DNA from: Ewingella americana ATCC 33852
GTDB lineage: Bacteria > Pseudomonadota > Gammaproteobacteria > Enterobacterales > Enterobacteriaceae
NCBI RefSeq assembly: GCF_000735345.1
Contig: NZ_JMPJ01000026.1
Location: 1 to 64,000 of the forward strand
Direction: 5' to 3'
Length of the DNA: 64,000 bases
Shown: positions 11 to 7,378 of the stretch, in pieces
Layout of the letters: each line of letters begins with the position of its first letter
How positions within the stretch are numbered: position 1 is the stretch's first letter
Position numbers and translations under genes: made by a program
Notes under the pieces: model-generated
Told to the model about the DNA's origin: nothing
Seen by the model: the letters and a program-made list of their open reading frames with translations, nothing else
The model's database searches: none

Positions 11-157
11 GCATTTCGACCGTGCCGTTTCAGTTGGGTTTGTTTTGCTCCCTCCCCTATTTAGGGGAGGGTTGGGGTGGGGTATTTCTTACATAAGCCA
101 CTGAGTTTTCTGCAATACCCCCTCCCAGTCTTCCCTGAAACGGCACGGTGTAAATGC
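11..157. repeat. MITE-like palindromic repeat with 23-bp terminal inverted repeats
   Basis: Bases 11-33 and 135-157 are inverted repeats matching at 21 of 23 positions; the inner 15 bases (19-33 and 135-149) match perfectly. Inside are a short hairpin, cctcccc/ggggagg around 51-70, and a G-rich stretch answered by a C-rich one near 117-127. There is no room for a transposase, so a non-autonomous, MITE-like or structured intergenic repeat is the simplest reading. Genome copy number cannot be judged from this window. Confidence 0.6.
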
Positions 158-434
158 CGGTAGGTCGCGTTCAGAAGTGACGCCGAGGGAGTGGTTCGAG
201 ACCTATGGCTCGAAGCCCGAACTGAGGGAACCGCCTAAGCGGCGGCACTTCGCGACGATCACTGTGGCTGCTGAAACACGTCCATTCCGACCCTGCGCAG
301 CCTCGATCTTCCAACAGAAAAAACGCAGGGTTCCAAGGGAGGCGCGTTTACGCCTCCCTTGGTCGGTGTGGGCCGACGCCCACGGTTTTGAATTTGAATT
401 TGAATTTAAAGATTTAGGCCGCCCGCCCAGGGCA
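158..434. other. Non-coding stretch with hairpins and a hexamer repeat
   Basis: No convincing gene. A perfect 12-bp stem with a 6-nt loop lies at 333-362 (ccaagggaggcg / cgcctcccttgg), followed by a 6-bp stem at 368-383 (gtgggc / gcccac) and three tandem copies of gaattt at 390-407. The first hairpin could act as a terminator or a dispersed repeat, but no T-run follows it directly. An open frame on the plus strand from 177 runs through the hairpin and into the antisense of the next gene, so it is not called. Confidence 0.45.
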
Positions 435-920
435 TCATTTCTTCAAGAAATGAAAAAGATAATAATCCCCTTTTGGACTCTCACCCTCGGCGACAACCTC
501 CCATCCTTTGGCGTGATAAAACGCGACGGAGTTTTTACTCTTGATTAAACACTTCAGTGAACCAGTGCCGGTGAACATGGCTTCGCTGGCGTGGAGCAGG
601 GCGCTGCCGACGCCGGTGCCTTTGTGGGCGGGGTCTACGAACAGGTTATGCAGGAAATTCTCTTGCGTGAAGATGGAAGCGAAACCTAGCAGTTTCCCTT
701 GATGTTCGGCGACGATCACCGTCTCTCCGATGATGGCGCGGTCGAAATCTTCGAGCTGAAAATCACGGGTATCCATCCAAGTCCACGTATCCTTGCGTGA
801 CGCGAGGTACAGCGTGCGTAAAAAGGGGCGATCGGCTTCTTCATAAGGGCGTATCTGCAAGACATCTTCTCCATTGTTACCCGCTTCGACGATTCTAGGT
901 TGATATTCCAGACGTGCCAA
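435..920 (-). CDS. GNAT-family N-acetyltransferase
   Basis: A 161-residue protein with a single GNAT fold. The acetyl-CoA loop reads HKGTGVGSALLH, following the beta-4 segment FLHNLFVDPA, and the C-terminus has the usual SVAFYHAKGWEVV element. Substrate unknown; the family acetylates small-molecule amines or protein N-termini. The reading frame opens with TTG at 918-920 and has no strong ribosome-binding site. Another TTG about 21 codons in could be the real start, because GNAT homology begins near LQIRPYEEAD. It is divergent from the thiM riboswitch, so the two share an upstream region of only a few bases. Domain is clear; function and start are open. Confidence 0.8.
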   Translation of the reverse strand: MARLEYQPRIVEAGNNGEDVLQIRPYEEADRPFLRTLYLASRKDTWTWMDTRDFQLEDFDRAIIGETVIVAEHQGKLLGFASIFTQENFLHNLFVDPAHKGTGVGSALLHASEAMFTGTGSLKCLIKSKNSVAFYHAKGWEVVAEGESPKGDYYLFHFLKK

Positions 921-935
921 CCAATAATGGCTTTC

Positions 936-1066
936 GTTGACTCGGGGTGTCCTTCTTGTGAAAGAAAGGGCTGAGACCTTACCCGTATTACCTGATCTGG
1001 ATTATGCCAGCGTAGGGAAGTCAGGTATCTCTCCCGATACCGCCTTCTTTAGCGCCGGTTGGGAGA
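936..1066 (+). promoter_or_regulatory. TPP (THI-box) riboswitch with RBS-sequestering hairpin
   Basis: The conserved THI-box blocks are all present: ctcggggtg at 941, ggctgaga near 969, acccgt at 981, and acctgatctgg followed by tgccagcgtagggaag up to 1020. This matches the E. coli thiM aptamer closely. Downstream, tctccc (1030-1035) can pair with gggaga (1061-1066), which overlaps the thiM ribosome-binding site. Ligand binding would therefore be expected to block translation of thiM and, by coupling, thiD. Aptamer assignment is near certain; the switching mechanism is inferred. Confidence 0.95.
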
Positions 1067-1069
1067 AAT

Positions 1070-1880
1070 ATGAACACTCGACCTTCCGTTTTTTCCGGCA
1101 ACTCTGCTGCCGCTGCCCTCGAAAACCTGCGTCATGCTAAGCCGCTGGTTCACTGTTTGACTAATGATGTGGTGCAATCCTTCACGGCCAATGTGCTGCT
1201 GGCGTTGAATGCCTCCCCCGCGATGGTGGTGGACCCAACGGAAGCCGCGCAGTTCAGCGCCATTGCTGATGCGGTGCTGATCAACGTTGGGACGCTGACT
1301 CAGCCCCACTGCCGACGCTATGCTGGCCGCAGTTCACTCGGCTAATCAAGCTGGGAAGCCTTGGGTGCTGGACCCGGTCGCCGTCGGCGGGCTGGGGCTG
1401 CGCACTGAGTTTTGCCGCCAGTTAATCAAACTTCATCCTGCTGCAATTCGCGGCAATGCGTCTGAGATCCGTGCGCTAAGTGGCTTAACCTCCACCGGGC
1501 GCGGCGTGGATAGCGGCGACGATTCGCTCTCCGCGCTGCCCGCTGCCGAAGCCTTAGCCCGCGAAACTGGGGCTATCGTGGCGGTGACGGGGGAAGTTGA
1601 CTATGTCACTGACGGCGCGCGTAGCCTTGCTGTAACAGGCGGCGACGCGCTGATGACCCGCATTGTTGGGACCGGCTGCGCGCTGTCGGCGGTGGTGGCG
1701 GCTTTTGTCTCCCTGCCCGGCGACCGGCTGGATAACGTCGCGGCGGCTTGCCGGGTGATGTCCTGCGCGGGGGAAAGAGCGTGCAGCGAAGCGCGCGGGC
1801 CGGGCAGCTTTACCCCGGCTTTCCTCGACAACCTTTGGCTGCTGAATGGCGAGATGCTGACGTCTGGGGAAGCAGTATGA
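1070..1880 (+). pseudogene. thiM: Hydroxyethylthiazole kinase ThiM, interrupted by a +1 frameshift
   Basis: ThiM phosphorylates 4-methyl-5-hydroxyethylthiazole in thiamine salvage. Residues from [10 protein letters not shown] through [10 protein letters not shown] are read in one frame (1070-1309), and the rest, MLAAVHSAN to the stop at 1880, in another. E. coli ThiM continues [10 protein letters not shown] into RAQAMRAAV without a break. Removing one C from the CCCC run at 1304-1307, or the T at 1310, restores a continuous product of about 269 residues, close to the family's usual 262. Conserved GTGCALSAV and RGNASEI motifs remain downstream. The stop overlaps the thiD ATG (ATGA), so loss of translation here could also reduce thiD. 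It may be a real mutation or a homopolymer sequencing error. Confidence 0.9.
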
Positions 1881-2677
1881 AGCGTATCAATGCTTTAACT
1901 ATTGCCGGGACTGACCCGAGCGGCGGCGCGGGGATTCAGGCTGACCTGAAAACCTTCTCGGCGCTGGCGGCTTACGGCACCAGCGTTATCACCGCGCTGG
2001 TGGCGCAAAACACCCGTGGCGTGCAGTCGGTTTACAACATCGACCCTGCCTTTGTGGCGGCGCAGTTGGACTCGGTACTCGGCGACGTGCGCATTGATAC
2101 CGCCAAAATCGGCATGCTGGCTAACAGCGATATTGTCGAAGCCGTGGCCGAGCGCCTTCGGCACTACCAGCCGCCGTTCGTAGTGCTGGACACCGTAATG
2201 CTGGCTAAAAGCGGTGACCCGCTGCTGTCGGCGGATTCGGTAGAGGCGCTGCGACGCCTGCTGCTGCCGCAGGTAGCGATTATCACGCCGAACCTGCCGG
2301 AGGCCGCGGCACTGCTGGAGTGCGACATGGCGCAGAATGAGCAAGAGATGCGTGAGCAGGGGGAAGCATTGCTGGCGATGGGCTGTGACGCGGTGCTGAT
2401 GAAGGGCGGGCATTTAACGGATAGTGAAAGCCCGGACTGGCTGTTTATGCGCGGATCCCGCGAGCGCTTTACCGCGCCGCGGGTTGAGACTCGCCACACG
2501 CATGGCACGGGCTGCACGCTGTCGGCGGCGTTGGCGGCTCTGCGCCCGCGCCACGATAACTGGCCGGACACGGTTCGCGCCGCAAAAGCTTATCTGCAAC
2601 AGGCGCTGATGCAAGCCGACTCGCTGGAAGTGGGGCACGGCATCGGGCCGGTTCACCATTTCCACCAGTGGTGGTAA
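1877..2677 (+). CDS. thiD: Hydroxymethylpyrimidine/phosphomethylpyrimidine kinase
   Basis: ThiD phosphorylates HMP and HMP-phosphate to give HMP-PP, the pyrimidine half of thiamine. The 266-residue product has the N-terminal [16 protein letters not shown] substrate motif, the MLAKSG segment, and the C-terminal anion-hole motif [13 protein letters not shown] with the family cysteine. ATG 1877 is chosen because it overlaps the thiM stop as ATGA and begins exactly where ThiD homology starts; the frame stays open upstream only by chance. Its translation should be coupled to thiM and so controlled by the TPP riboswitch. Confidence 0.95.
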
Positions 2678-2694
2678 CGGGGCGAACTCCGCCG

Positions 2695-3558
2695 TCAGGC
2701 CCTGATTTTGTTATGGCATAACTCAGGTTCTACCTGTTTGAACATCGACAGCGCCTGCTGCAAATGCTCGGCGTCGAACGGATTCAACGGGTAGAACTTG
2801 TCCTCTTTGCGCGGGCGCAGCGACAGCCGAATCTGGGTGGCGGTCACCCGCTCATACAGGTAGCTGGCGATGTCGTCGTTTTCCTCATCGCGCCATGAAA
2901 TCATCAGCGCCGCGTGCTCGCCGGTGCGGCGACCCAGAAAACGATTCTTGGTCCACATCCCTTCGAAATCGCCATCTTTTTGCAGTTTCTTGCCGCTGAA
3001 CAGGTCGCTATCCGCCAAGTACCACAGGGCCTGCGGCGAGATTTCCCGCTGCACGCTGCGCCACATTGGTTGATTGTTCTCCATCTGCCAGCAGGCCATG
3101 CCGAGGTAGTCATTAAGCTCGCGCCAGTCGTTTTCCAACTGCTGTTTCAGGCTTTTATCGGCCAGCGTGTGGAACTGCTGCAAGCCGGTGGCCTGTGCGC
3201 CAAGGCGGGTATAGCCGACCACCGACATGGTGCGTGGCCTGCGGCGCAGCGTCATCCACAGTAGGAATTTTGGAATGCGGAACTTGATGGCCTGCACGCT
3301 GAGCTTGTAGCGCTGGCCGCGTGACATCACCAAGCCGTTAGACGCGCCGCGTTTGTCTTGATAATTGCGTACCAGCACCACGCTGTTTTGCCCCATCCAG
3401 CCGGTGACGTAATGTTCTTTGTCGCTGGCTGAAATATCCAAATCACGGGCGATCTGCTCGATTTTCTCCACGTCCAACTGGCCGAGGGAGAGGCTTTGAT
3501 CCGCGCTGTAATAGCTCTTCTTTAAAACGGAGGAGGTCGGGGGAGTGGCTAACGACAT
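2695..3558 (-). CDS. Uncharacterised conserved-looking protein
   Basis: A 287-residue basic protein I do not recognise. It has no signal peptide and no clear membrane segment, though FRIPKFLLWMTL near residue 93 is hydrophobic. It is rich in Trp and Arg, with a central RRRPRTMSVVGYTRLG stretch and a C-terminal acidic-basic mixed region. Codon use resembles its neighbours and the frame is intact. It converges on thiD (17-bp gap) and lies beside the flagellar scar, transcribed in the same direction as lfhA. A link with the lost Flag-2 locus is possible but nothing in the sequence proves it. Confidence 0.6.
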   Translation of the reverse strand: MSLATPPTSSVLKKSYYSADQSLSLGQLDVEKIEQIARDLDISASDKEHYVTGWMGQNSVVLVRNYQDKRGASNGLVMSRGQRYKLSVQAIKFRIPKFLLWMTLRRRPRTMSVVGYTRLGAQATGLQQFHTLADKSLKQQLENDWRELNDYLGMACWQMENNQPMWRSVQREISPQALWYLADSDLFSGKKLQKDGDFEGMWTKNRFLGRRTGEHAALMISWRDEENDDIASYLYERVTATQIRLSLRPRKEDKFYPLNPFDAEHLQQALSMFKQVEPELCHNKIRA

Positions 3559-3648
3559 AACCGGGCTTCCAGCAAAATGACATTACTTATAGCGTAGCCT
3601 AAGTTGTCGGACATATTTATGTCAGTGCTAGCAAAAACCACAATTTTA

Positions 3649-3679
3649 ATATCCCGCGCCCAGAACAGGCGCGGGGAAA
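3649..3679 (-). terminator. Weak hairpin terminator after lfhA remnant
   Basis: On the minus strand, ccgcgcc and ggcgcgg form a 7-bp GC stem directly after the lfhA stop, followed by gatattaaaatt, which is only moderately U-rich. Either a weak intrinsic terminator or a simple hairpin. Confidence 0.4.
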
Positions 3680-3685
3680 AGGGTA

Positions 3686-5389
3686 TTACGTCAGGCTACC
3701 TTCAATCCGCAGTTCGTGTTCATCGGGGATTTCATTGAAGGAGAGCACGTGCAGCCCCGGCGCGAATAAACGGGCGTAGCGCGACAGCAGCGGGCGCAGC
3801 TGCGGCGGCACCAGCAGCACCGGCTCTTTGCCAATGGCTTTCATCTGCTCTTTGACTTTTGGCAGCGTATTTTGGAACTGTGTCAGCAGGTTAGGGTCCA
3901 GCGGAATGCTGTCGAGCGGCGTCTTCCCGGCGGTTTGCGTCTGGTTGAAAGCGGCCATCAGCAGCGTTTCCAGCTCGTGATGCAGGGTGTAAACCGACAG
4001 CGCGCTGCCCTGAACCATGCCCGCCGTGATGCTGCGGCGCAGGGCGTAACGCACGTCGGCCGCCAGCAGGAAGGCGTCTTTGGTGGTGGCGGCGCTTTCA
4101 AGCAGCGTGGTGCCAATCACCACGATATCGCGCAGCGACACCCCTTCTTGCAGCAGCATGCGATAGATGCGCAACAGCTGGCTGTAGTTCAGCGCGCCGT
4201 TGAGATCTTCCGCCAGCTTGGGCGACATCGACGCCAGCCGGTTGTGCAGCAGGGTGATGTCGTCATAGTTGAACAGGTCGGGAATATGCTGACGCAGCAC
4301 CTTGTTGACGTGCGTCGCCACCACGCTGGCGCAGTCCACCACTTGATAGCCTAGATTGAGCGCGTGCGGCTTCTGGTCCGGCGTTATCCAGGTCACCGGC
4401 ATGCCATAGGCCGGGTCATTATCGAGCTGACCGTCCACCTCGCCGTAGGTTTCACTGGAGGGCAGTGCCATCAGCTTGTCGGCGGGCAGGGTGCCGCTGG
4501 CCTGCTTGATGCCGTTAACGGTAATAATGTACTGGGTCGGCTTAAGGCGGAAGTTCTCCCGAATACGCACCTCGGGCAGCAGCACGCCGTAGGTTTCCGA
4601 CACCACCTGCCGCACGCCGCGTATTCGCTGAGTGAGGGGGCTGCCTTTGGACTTATCGACCAGCGTCACTAGCTTATAGCCGAGGCTGATCGCCACCGGC
4701 TCAATCAGCGGAATGCTTTCCCAACTGACGGTTTGCTCGATATCTTCGCTGATATTTTTCGAGATTTCTGCCAGTTGCTCGGCTTCGTTAACAGCCGCCT
4801 TAGGCTGGCGACTGGTGCGCCACGCGGCGTAAGCCAGCATCGCGGTGAAAGAGAGGAACGGCAGGTGCGGCATGCCCGGCACCACCGCCAGCACGAACAT
4901 CACGCCCGCCGCCGTGTAGAGGGTCATCGGCGAAGCCAGCAGCTGGCGCTTCATTTCGGTGGCCATATCACCGCTGTCATTGACGCGGGTAACGATAATT
5001 GCCGCAGCGGTTGAGAGCAGCAGGGACGGGATCTGCGCCACTAAACCATCACCGATAGTCAGCAACACGTACTGCTGGAAGGCGGCGCTGGCGGTCAGAT
5101 CATATTTGAAGATACCGATACAGATACCGCCGATCAGGTTGATCATTAAGATCATCATCCCGGCGATGGCGTCCCCGCGCACAAACTTCGACGCACCGTC
5201 CATCGCGCCGTAGAAATCCGCCTCACTGGCGATCTCTTTACGGCGGGTTCGCGCCTGCTCTTGGTTGATAAGCCCGGCGTTCAGGTCGGCGTCGATAGCC
5301 ATCTGTTTGCCCGGCATCGCGTCGAGGGTGAATCGCGCGGAGACCTCGGAAATACGCTCGGCCCCCTTGGTCACTACCACGAAGTTAAT
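3686..5389 (-). pseudogene. lfhA: LfhA (Flag-2 flagellar FlhA homologue), 5'-truncated
   Basis: FlhA-family export-gate protein of the lateral (Flag-2) flagellar type III apparatus. From INFVVVTKGAERISEV onward it follows FlhA: ARFTLDAMPGKQMAIDADLNAG, the FYGAMDGASKFVRGDA segment, later membrane helices, then the cytosolic domain to the C-terminus (about 567 residues). Family members are near 690, so roughly the first 125 residues with the first membrane helices are missing. The frame stays open beyond 5389 only as antisense of lafU; an annotator would report a chimeric 604-residue protein starting at 5500. The break coincides with the start of lafU' on the other strand, as in the fhiA-mbhA deletion of E. 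coli K-12. The LfhA rather than FlhA assignment rests on the neighbour and remembered similarity. Confidence 0.85.
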
Positions 5390-6248
5390 CCTAAGCTCGG
5401 TCAACCAAAAGGAGCGCGAAGAGATCGTTGCCGCGCTGCATGACCAGTCGATTTTCAAAGGCAATGTCTTCGCTCCGCTGAACTCAATTGGCAAAACCAA
5501 TTCGGTTATCCCCCAGCAGGTTCCCGTGACCTACAAAGAGCCGCAAAAAACGCGGCAGGTGGAGAAACCCAAACCGACCAAGGTAAAACCCGAGGAGAAA
5601 CCGCCGGTGAATGTGCGTCAGCAGGAAGTTGACGCTGCCGAGAAGATGGACGCGCTGAGCAGTAAAAAATCGGCGCGTGAGCTGAGTGAGCTGGCCACCA
5701 ATATCAATTCCATCGCCAAGAAAAACCATATGGAAGCCAATCTGGAGATTGAAGTGATCCCGCAGGGCTTGCGGGTATTGATTCAGGACGGCCATGACCG
5801 CGACATGTTCCAGCGCGGCAGTGCCAGCCTGACACCGTTCTTCCGTACCTTGCTGACCGAACTGGCACCGACCTTCAACAATATTGATAACAAAATCATT
5901 ATCAGCGGCCATACCGATGCGGTGATGTACAAAAATCAGGCGAAGTATAACAACTGGAATCTGTCCGGTGACCGCGCGCTGGTAGCGCGTCGCGTGCTCG
6001 AACAGGCCGGACTTGCCAAGGGCAAAGTGCTTCAGGTGAATGCCATGTCTGATCAGATGCTGCTGGACCCGAATAGCCCGGAAAGCGCCCGCAACCGCCG
6101 AATAGAAATCATGGTGCTGACCAAAACGGCATCGGACTCCTTGTATGAATTCTTTGGCGATCGCGGCGATAAAGTGGTCGAGCCGCTGACGGAAAAAATT
6201 GAGAAACAGGAGGGGCTGGCGGCACCGACTACCGCGCCAGCAGAGTGA
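5388..6248 (+). pseudogene. lafU: LafU (Flag-2 MotB-type stator protein), 5'-truncated
   Basis: About 286 residues of a MotB/LafU flagellar stator subunit. Homology starts at ILSSVNQKEREEIV, just after the family's membrane helix, and runs through a Pro/Lys-rich linker into an OmpA-like peptidoglycan-binding domain (FQRGSASLTPFF, IIISGHTDAVMY, NRRIEIMV). The N-terminal cytosolic tail, the single membrane helix and the proton-channel aspartate are absent. The only in-frame ATG upstream (5265) lies in antisense lfhA sequence, so it is not a genuine start. A stator without its helix cannot conduct ions; any product would be inert. It is joined head to head with lfhA'. Confidence 0.85.
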
Positions 6249-6253
6249 TTGTC

Positions 6254-7378
6254 ATGACGATACTTAACCTGATTGGCGAATCTTCGGCCCTGTTGCCCAC
6301 CCTACACGGGTCGGGCAACTCGGTGGCGCGCCGCTTGCTGACTGCTTTTGTCATGAGCTGCTGCCTGTTGCTGACATTGACGCCACTGCGCGCGGTGGCC
6401 GTGCCGACGACGCGTAGCCAAGTGGTTAAGAAAAAGGTGCATAAGGTCAGTAGCAAGCCAAAGGCAGCCAGCAAGCCCAAAGCCAGCAGCAAATCTAAGG
6501 CGAGCAGTAAGCCCAAGGCCAACAGCAAACCTAAGGCGACCAGTAAACCCAAAGCCAGCAGCAAACCTAAGGCGACCAGTAAACCCAAGGCCAGCAGCAA
6601 ACCTAAAGCGGCCAGCAAGCCCAAAGCCAGCAGCAAACCTAAAGCGACCAGTAAACCCAAGGCCACCAGCAAGTCCAAAGTTAGCAGCAAAAAGAAACCC
6701 GCAGCACCGGCGGTGAAGCTGAGCTTCGCCGCCCAGCAGCGGGCCAAAAACCGTGAGCTACTAAAGCACCATCCCGTTAAGGTGGTGGCGACCAGCTACG
6801 GCGATAAGCCGCGGAAAACCGCCAGTTCCTCAAACCTGCACAGCTCGGCGGCCGAGCGGCGTGCTAATCGCAAGCTGATAGCACAACATCCTGACTGGTT
6901 TAGCCATCGGCAGACGGTGGCACCCGACGCGCTGGGCAGTGACAGCATCGCGCTGGCGTATCGTGACCATTTGCATCAGACCACGCAAAAAGCCATGTCT
7001 ACCCTGATGAAGCAGCTGGGGAAACCTTATGTTTGGGGCGGAACTTCACCGAAAATTGGCTTTGATTGCAGTGGATTAGTCTACTTTGCTTACCACGGCT
7101 TGTTGACAGAGGGGATCCCGAGAACCGCCAACGGCATGTATCGATGGGCCAGAGGTAAGAAGGTCGCGCAAAACCAACTGAAGCGCGGAGACCTGATTTT
7201 CTTCCGCATTCATTCGCGCAGTAACGCCGACCACGTTGGGGTGTATCTCGGCAATGGCAAATTTATCGAATCACCGAGAACGGGCAAGGATATCCGCATC
7301 AGCACCCTGAGTGATTCCTTCTGGCAGAATCATTATCTCGGCGCCAAGCGAGTGCTGACGCCGGAAACCATTATCTAA
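6254..7378 (+). CDS. NlpC/P60 endopeptidase with Ser-Lys-Pro-Lys-Ala repeat linker
   Basis: A 374-residue predicted peptidoglycan hydrolase. A hydrophobic segment near residues 35-50 (VMSCCLLLTLTPLRAVA) looks like a signal peptide or anchor preceded by a long N-region. Next comes a basic linker of thirteen xSKPKA units, then a linker with a duplicated RxNRxLxxxHP element (KNRELLKHHP, ANRKLIAQHP). The C-terminal NlpC/P60 domain has the catalytic Cys in GFDCSGLVYFAY and His in NADHVGVYLGNG. Such enzymes cut gamma-D-Glu-DAP bonds in murein. ATG 6254 is preferred; GTG 6245, overlapping the lafU stop, is an alternative. Its natural promoter is not visible and may lie within the lafU remnant. Confidence 0.8.
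   Translation: MTILNLIGESSALLPTLHGSGNSVARRLLTAFVMSCCLLLTLTPLRAVAVPTTRSQVVKKKVHKVSSKPKAASKPKASSKSKASSKPKANSKPKATSKPKASSKPKATSKPKASSKPKAASKPKASSKPKATSKPKATSKSKVSSKKKPAAPAVKLSFAAQQRAKNRELLKHHPVKVVATSYGDKPRKTASSSNLHSSAAERRANRKLIAQHPDWFSHRQTVAPDALGSDSIALAYRDHLHQTTQKAMSTLMKQLGKPYVWGGTSPKIGFDCSGLVYFAYHGLLTEGIPRTANGMYRWARGKKVAQNQLKRGDLIFFRIHSRSNADHVGVYLGNGKFIESPRTGKDIRISTLSDSFWQNHYLGAKRVLTPETII
6449..6700 (+). repeat. 18-bp in-frame tandem repeat, about 14 units
   Basis: Codons from 6449 form units of six residues, x-S-K-P-K-A with x = S, A, T or N. Thirteen units fill 6449-6682 and a degenerate fourteenth (SSKKKP) ends at 6700. Many units are nearly identical in DNA (agcagcaaacctaaggcg, accagtaaacccaaggcc), so copy number could change by slippage or recombination without breaking the frame. 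Confidence 0.9.

Follow-up and report, generated by a model that had tools for sequence, protein, structure and literature searches.

Probable recurrent loss of the Flag-2 lateral flagellar cluster at the same base of lfhA across genera

A deletion scar in Ewingella americana

We found that the breakpoint left in the gene lfhA by loss of the Flag-2 lateral flagellar cluster is the same base across genera, probably a recurrent loss at one base without matching homology. This is the new result; the class of deletion scars itself is already in print (De Maayer 2020; fhiA/mbhA of Escherichia coli K-12). The scar analyzed here lies in a stretch of 64,000 nt from Ewingella americana ATCC 33852 (contig NZ_JMPJ01000026.1), hereafter the window. 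There, an antisense lfhA remnant meets a lafU remnant devoid of its membrane helix at positions 5388–5390, which confirms a preliminary description of this DNA that had two divergent remnants meeting near 5387–5392. The locus is the leftover of one deletion of the whole Flag-2 cluster and represents a further case of the known scar class.

The lfhA remnant (lfhA', 3686–5389, minus strand) consists of the C-terminal 567 codons of the Flag-2 export gate gene with zero internal stops, the N-terminal 130 codons being gone. Using the full-length LfhA of the same-genus genome G001 as a tblastn query, we recovered residues 131–697 with 99.3% identity, ending at position 5389, the I of INFVVV. The full-length G001 LafU recovered residues 49–336 (90%) from position 5385; in intact LafU, the membrane helix (ALFMVLW) is found just ahead of the residues retained in the window. 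The lafU remnant (lafU', 5390–6248, plus strand; tblastn and alignment) represents a MotB-like stator gene without its cytoplasmic start and membrane helix. The joint connects lfhA codon I131 to lafU codon I49, and when compared with both ends of the G001 cluster it runs from lfhA ...AAGTTAAT to lafU (AT)CCTAAGCTCG...; the AT at 5388–5389 is compatible with both parents and the joint is therefore placed within 5388–5390. Other FlhA genes match the window at the DNA level, and many of these matches end at the same spot (5389–5390). One search had an LfhA query that by design ended at the joint; the breakpoint claim rests on the other comparisons.

Two open reading frames were confirmed, each spanning the joint: one of 604 aa (3686–5500, minus strand) with antisense lafU' codons followed by lfhA', and one of 327 aa (5265–6248, plus strand) with antisense lfhA' codons followed by lafU'. 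As regards the expectation that annotation would yield two complete-seeming chimeras, lafU' is annotated as an ordinary protein of 261 aa and the lfhA piece is flagged as incomplete (16/16 E. coli scar records).

G001 carries the whole Flag-2 cluster at this site, with flanks matching both sides of the window. The two sequences align over window positions 131–5389 (93%), and the alignment resumes 38.6 kb further on at 5394–6474 (84%) and continues into the right flank; in G001, 38,616 bp separate the two joined points. Immediately right of the joint, 6 of the first 30 bases differ from G001, a level that an older scar might show. Both genes are present in G001, while the remaining four of five other genomes in the genus (G002–G005) presented neither LafU nor LfhA at the thresholds used. 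For LafT, the single inner gene searched, the best match in the genome of the window was a protein with 37% identity, and lafT is absent. A single internal deletion between the outermost Flag-2 genes, as had been proposed, accounts for both truncations. The alignment that had been recommended, with an intact cluster, gave the breakpoint at 5388–5390. Neither of the observations that would have overturned the proposal was made: no close relative showed an intact lfhA starting at 5500 with the window's N-terminus, and a strain of the genus does carry Flag-2 genes at this site.

The same lfhA base in other genera

An E. coli scar and a scar of another genus (G025) are joined in the register of the window. 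The fhiA-mbhA scar of K-12 involves the same two genes in head-to-head orientation with the same codons and register at the joint, which bears out the suggestion that K-12 has the same type of scar. In and just past lfhA', the DNA of the window is about 74% identical to that of an E. coli scar, K-12 has AAGTTGAT where the window has AAGTTAAT, and the YafL-like gene lies on the lafU side in the window but on the lfhA side in E. coli.

We scanned named genomes with a LafU alignment and kept 80 of 184 relatives. The lfhA' remnant was found just upstream of lafU' in 17 of these 80 loci, and lfhA was broken at the same codon and base in all 17 scars. The lafU break was located at codon I49 (site 1) in 14 scars and near codon 15 (site 2) in the remaining three. 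Site 1 scars were found in Escherichia, Citrobacter, Kluyvera, Atlantibacter, Edaphovirga, Cedecea, Erwinia, Pantoea coffeiphila and Enterobacter Ag1, and the three site 2 scars belong to Pantoea. A second survey, overlapping in genomes with the first, covered 392 genomes of the family, 74 of them with LafU; flanks were fetched for all 74, in most cases extending from lafU by up to about 6 kb toward lfhA. The same lfhA base was observed in 15 of the 16 lfhA'-lafU' scars (13 fetched loci, the window and G025). The single exception (L204, genome G129) is a more decayed remnant with a different boundary. In L204, the recognizable parts are limited to LfhA residues 360–446 and LafU residues 110–324; this loss is apparently older and decayed.

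In Pantoea (the genus of genome G297), 14 of 61 genomes presented LfhA with at least 70% identity, corresponding to 10 scars and four intact genes. All 10 scars share the same lfhA base, with lafU site 2 in six and site 1 in four. In one site 2 scar (L256, G475), LafU was recognizable by tblastn only from residue 193, and lafU' may be decaying there. Of 5426 E. coli genomes, 4037 cover 80% or more of the 2501-bp scar region at a single location, 4051 match a 120-bp probe centered on the joint over at least 80% of its length, and 1314 match the inner cluster ends. Two scars of the genus g64 (L213 in G233 and L197 in G379) have the same lfhA base and lafU site 1, and another g64 genome (G098) has lfhA and lafU about 33 kb apart by coordinates; the g64 scars likely represent another independent loss.

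The fixed place in lfhA reads AAGTT[G/A]AT, followed by GATCATCA in nearly all the intact genes examined. The places in lafU are TGGAT^ or ACCAT^, and the only bases that both parents share at the joint are AT or GAT. The preliminary description had suggested repeated loss between the same two end genes; this holds and was understated, the lfhA break being at the same base and not merely in the same gene.

The excerpted text of De Maayer (2020; PMC6993521) counts 531 of 4028 Enterobacterales strains with lfhA/lafU remnants and 592 with flag-2 loci, and its en bloc deletions are the same class of event as that of the window. That excerpt mentions neither a breakpoint at the same base across genera nor a second lafU endpoint, and it is silent on same-haplotype pairs and on how little the remnants have decayed. 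In a section of PMC3032704, fhiA and mbhA of K-12 and B are described as terminal remnants, and the portion of PMC3203889 consulted holds nothing further on the joint. No report of the exact breakpoint across genera was found in these partial texts. The scar class has so far been read as gene loss by repeat recombination.

Probably independent events

We analyzed the distribution of scars in an lfhA' gene tree of 55 rows, 22 of them scars. The scars fall into 14 groups parted by intact copies, with a minimum of 14 state changes; an earlier tree of 52 rows gave a minimum of 13. These are gene trees, with which strain-to-strain exchange is compatible. The lfhA trees and lfhA dN/dS were computed without L045 (frameshift) and L163, both kept in the lafU comparison, and 30 of the 63 non-scar named loci were used for lfhA. 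The intact rows include three permuted clusters (L127, L136 and L137) as well as L038, in which a full-length lfhA lies about 3 kb from lafU. Scar and intact states are intermixed in Escherichia and its near kin (nine changes on a 28-row tree). The codons right at the joint match the scar's own lineage, with Met in Enterobacter Ag1 and Val in Escherichia.

Three scar/intact pairs, two of E. coli and one of Pantoea, present the same haplotype on both sides of the joint. Strain KY171 (scar) differs from CP66 (intact) at 2/2600 positions left and 0/3000 right of the joint, and KP63 (scar) differs from 4/1-1 (intact) at 1/2600 left and 0/3000 right; the five intact E. coli haplotypes show 41–109 differences over 1698 positions among themselves. 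In Pantoea, the site 2 scar of G470 and the intact locus of G471 show 18 differences over 1600 positions on the left and 10 over 800 on the right, with none in the first 100 right. Pantoea G497 (site 1) and G498 (site 2), each the nearest to the other of seven compared, have the lfhA base in common but not the lafU site.

K-12 is identical to the intact strain O18ac over 2600 bases left of the joint and carries a different haplotype on the right, and so recombination between strains also acts at the E. coli Flag-2 locus. Homologous recombination may have brought in some of the E. coli scars. When four E. coli scars were set against 15 others, the nearest difference on the right side of the joint was at least 49 bp away, and a very short imported tract around the joint is, strictly speaking, conceivable in these four. 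We fetched 15 of 45 E. coli scars and five of 14 intact loci from 60 listed rows, the last of which matched 164 bases only. Seven of these 15 scars have a counterpart among the five intact strains at no more than five differences per 1600 bp; the other eight are 32–68 differences per 1600 bp away from the nearest and are at most presumed to be young.

Little decay of the remnants

The dN/dS of lfhA' in scars was 0.038–0.064 for site 2 Pantoea, 0.019–0.034 for Atlantibacter, 0.039–0.048 for Erwinia and P. coffeiphila, 0.033 for G379 and G233, and 0.017–0.021 for Escherichia, and it was 0.011 between the window and the intact G001. The range for intact lfhA pairs was 0.010–0.109. Similarly, lafU' presented 0.034–0.155 in scars and 0.016–0.222 in intact pairs. 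Within E. coli, pN/pS was 0.033 for 16 scars and 0.028 for five intact copies, with zero stops in any. If these 16 scars were as old as their haplotypes, neutral simulation at 0.085 substitutions per site would give a mean of 3.5 stops per copy. The remnants did not behave as a neutral pseudogene pair with dN/dS near 1 and accumulating stops and frameshifts. Across genera, the lfhA' frame is unbroken in 22 of 24 scar copies, and the other two (L045 of E. albertii and L163 of G441) are frameshifted.

The starts and upstream operons are gone for both lfhA' and lafU', and for this reason youth explains the conservation of the remnants better than function. The remnants probably have no function of their own and would be well conserved because the scars are young.

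Sequence features at the joint

We ranked all ungapped similarities between lfhA and lafU in 31 intact genomes. The pair actually used at the joint was below threshold in 23 genomes and ranked 110–686 (of 1315–1691) in the other eight, and better-scoring pairs were numerous in all 31. The breakpoints are not in the best repeats of the two genes in these genomes. When the lfhA end is taken as an anchor, site 1 is one of three to six equal best six-base matches in lafU (5/6 bases, score 930, none better; four clusters). Homology as what picks the joint site was rejected from the ranking, site 1 being a good but non-unique 3'-anchored match.

A GATC starts immediately 3' of the lfhA break in all 31 intact genomes ranked, though not in Pantoea G469, and the break adjoins a palindrome of 12–14 bp. 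Neither feature singles out the site: each of four clusters contains 152–163 GATCs, and equal or longer palindromes occur elsewhere. The GATC directly 3' of the lfhA break is a lead only. Candidate agents include mismatch-repair nicking at GATC, gyrase cleavage and IS200/IS605-type targets (TTGAT); intact genes and scars with TTAAT speak against the last. A trough of synonymous variation is present in lfhA, but the lowest stretch was also close by in a control of 26 other flhA-family genes, a few of them lateral-type and with the exact motif position not located, and low variation at the site is not clearly special. Five phage records match part of the region and none crosses the joint. A plasmid search returned 37 records; among the 20 matches listed, most are Escherichia and some are chromosome-sized.

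Origin of the recurrent joint

Our best reading, which we hold to be probable, is a recurrent site-specific loss from lfhA to lafU by an agent that we leave unnamed. Such a loss would have recurred, recently in many lineages, through a process that targets one fixed position in lfhA and pairs it with either of two lafU positions, with AT or GAT in common. This behavior is like that of site-specific recombination or of site-specific breakage and joining, and the same crossover position is found in apparently independent events (one lfhA base and two lafU positions over 14 scar-only groups). The site-specific excision of genomic islands is likewise precise and recurrent, with fixed ends and a shared core of 2–3 bp. 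The Flag-2 scars differ from it in that their ends lie inside two genes of the lost cluster and in that no named integrase (three E. coli clusters) or circle joint (5426 genomes) was found. The 400-nt probe for the reciprocal, circle-type joint of site 1 was covered to 80% or more at a single location in none of the 5426 E. coli genomes; finished genomes would seldom hold a circle. No recombinase occurs among the product names of the functionally annotated genes inside three intact E. coli clusters, and a RAYT transposase gene (rayT) lies just outside lfhA in two of these three. The missing reciprocal joint and the lack of a recombinase among these product names speak against a self-excising island but not against an agent acting in trans.

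Ordinary illegitimate recombination between short direct repeats (GTTGAT in lfhA, GTGGAT in lafU, with imperfect similarity rightward) would recur simply because coding sequence conserves the repeats. Several Escherichia-type genes carry an imperfect repeat GTTGATGATCATCAG / GTGGATTGTCAACAG with 11/15 bases alike, site 1 is among the best 3'-anchored six-base lafU matches of four clusters, and direct repeats at the E. coli ends are cited from an earlier paper in the excerpted text of De Maayer (2020; PMC6993521). However, the 31 intact genomes all offer better lfhA-lafU pairs under ungapped scoring, the site 2 joint lies 3 bases off the register of the longer match on offer (ATCATCA), and the site 1 similarity drops to about 7/9 bases by eye in the Enterobacter and Pantoea types. 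We regard this explanation as rather unlikely. The earlier paper behind the E. coli repeats, reference 15 of De Maayer (2020), is probably Ren et al. 2005.

One ancient deletion seems less likely again, with scar and intact alleles coexisting across species and homologous recombination with intact alleles refreshing the flanks up to the edge of homology. It would fit the identity of the joint in very different genera, the little-decayed remnants, the mixed states in Escherichia and near kin, and the K-12 recombination at the locus. It is weakened, not dead: two lafU endpoints occur with the one lfhA endpoint and alternate among close Pantoea relatives, lineage-specific codons stand right at the joint, and three pairs have unbroken flank haplotypes. 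Finally, it is very improbable that the remnants are working truncated LfhA and LafU proteins whose selection maintains the fusion point. Their dN/dS lies within intact ranges (0.017–0.064 for lfhA' and as given above for lafU') and the lfhA' frame is mostly unbroken, but both genes have lost start and upstream operon, constraint on both is as expected if both were whole until recently, two copies are frameshifted, and several scars have intact near-twins, for which youth suffices.

A more specific form of site-specific loss, programmed or enzyme-driven excision, is put forward tentatively and is doubtful. A conserved factor would cut the one place in lfhA and join it to one of the two places in lafU, as a built-in switch for flagellar loss whose remnants could serve as homology arms for regaining the cluster. 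The switch would throw alike in E. coli, Citrobacter, Kluyvera, Erwinia, Pantoea, Edaphovirga and the genus of the window. If losses of 35–39 kb do recur independently at one base across an order without matching homology, an overlooked site-specific remover of a large gene cluster would be at work, of which the fhiA-mbhA scar of K-12, a standard laboratory strain, would be one product. It would also help explain the patchy presence of Flag-2 and the intact-looking state of these so-called pseudogenes. Flag-2-positive laboratory strains make the question directly testable; E. coli W and Crooks are named as such in PMC3032704, and ATCC 8739 is one of the records that match both inner cluster ends.

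Neighboring genes and permuted clusters

Next to lafU', the window encodes a C40 (NlpC/P60) peptidase related to E. coli YafL (6245–7378, plus strand; 52%, the best E-value obtained with E. coli YafL in the window's own genome). For 35 of the 80 named loci, the flanks retrieved (6 kb at most) include a YafL-like gene, and this relative is a frequent neighbor of Flag-2. The peptidase contains long low-complexity repeats of SKPKA type (window 6450–6700), and the G001 alignment breaks within this stretch, from 6474 to 6658, suggesting that its length may change rapidly.

In genomes G134 and G359 (L266–L273), Flag-2 is circularly permuted, with the order lafA...lafU, YafL-like peptidase, lfhA...lafZ: the two ends that normally lie outermost are brought together, and the cluster is instead opened between lafZ and lafA. 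L042, L065 and L109 present the same permuted order by coordinates. The permuted clusters and the side on which yafL is found (lafU in the window, lfhA in E. coli) look like one circular gene order opened at different points. The gene beside lfhA in E. coli varies between rayT and a hicAB toxin-antitoxin pair, with both intact and scarred Flag-2 (L033, L235–L239 and L245).
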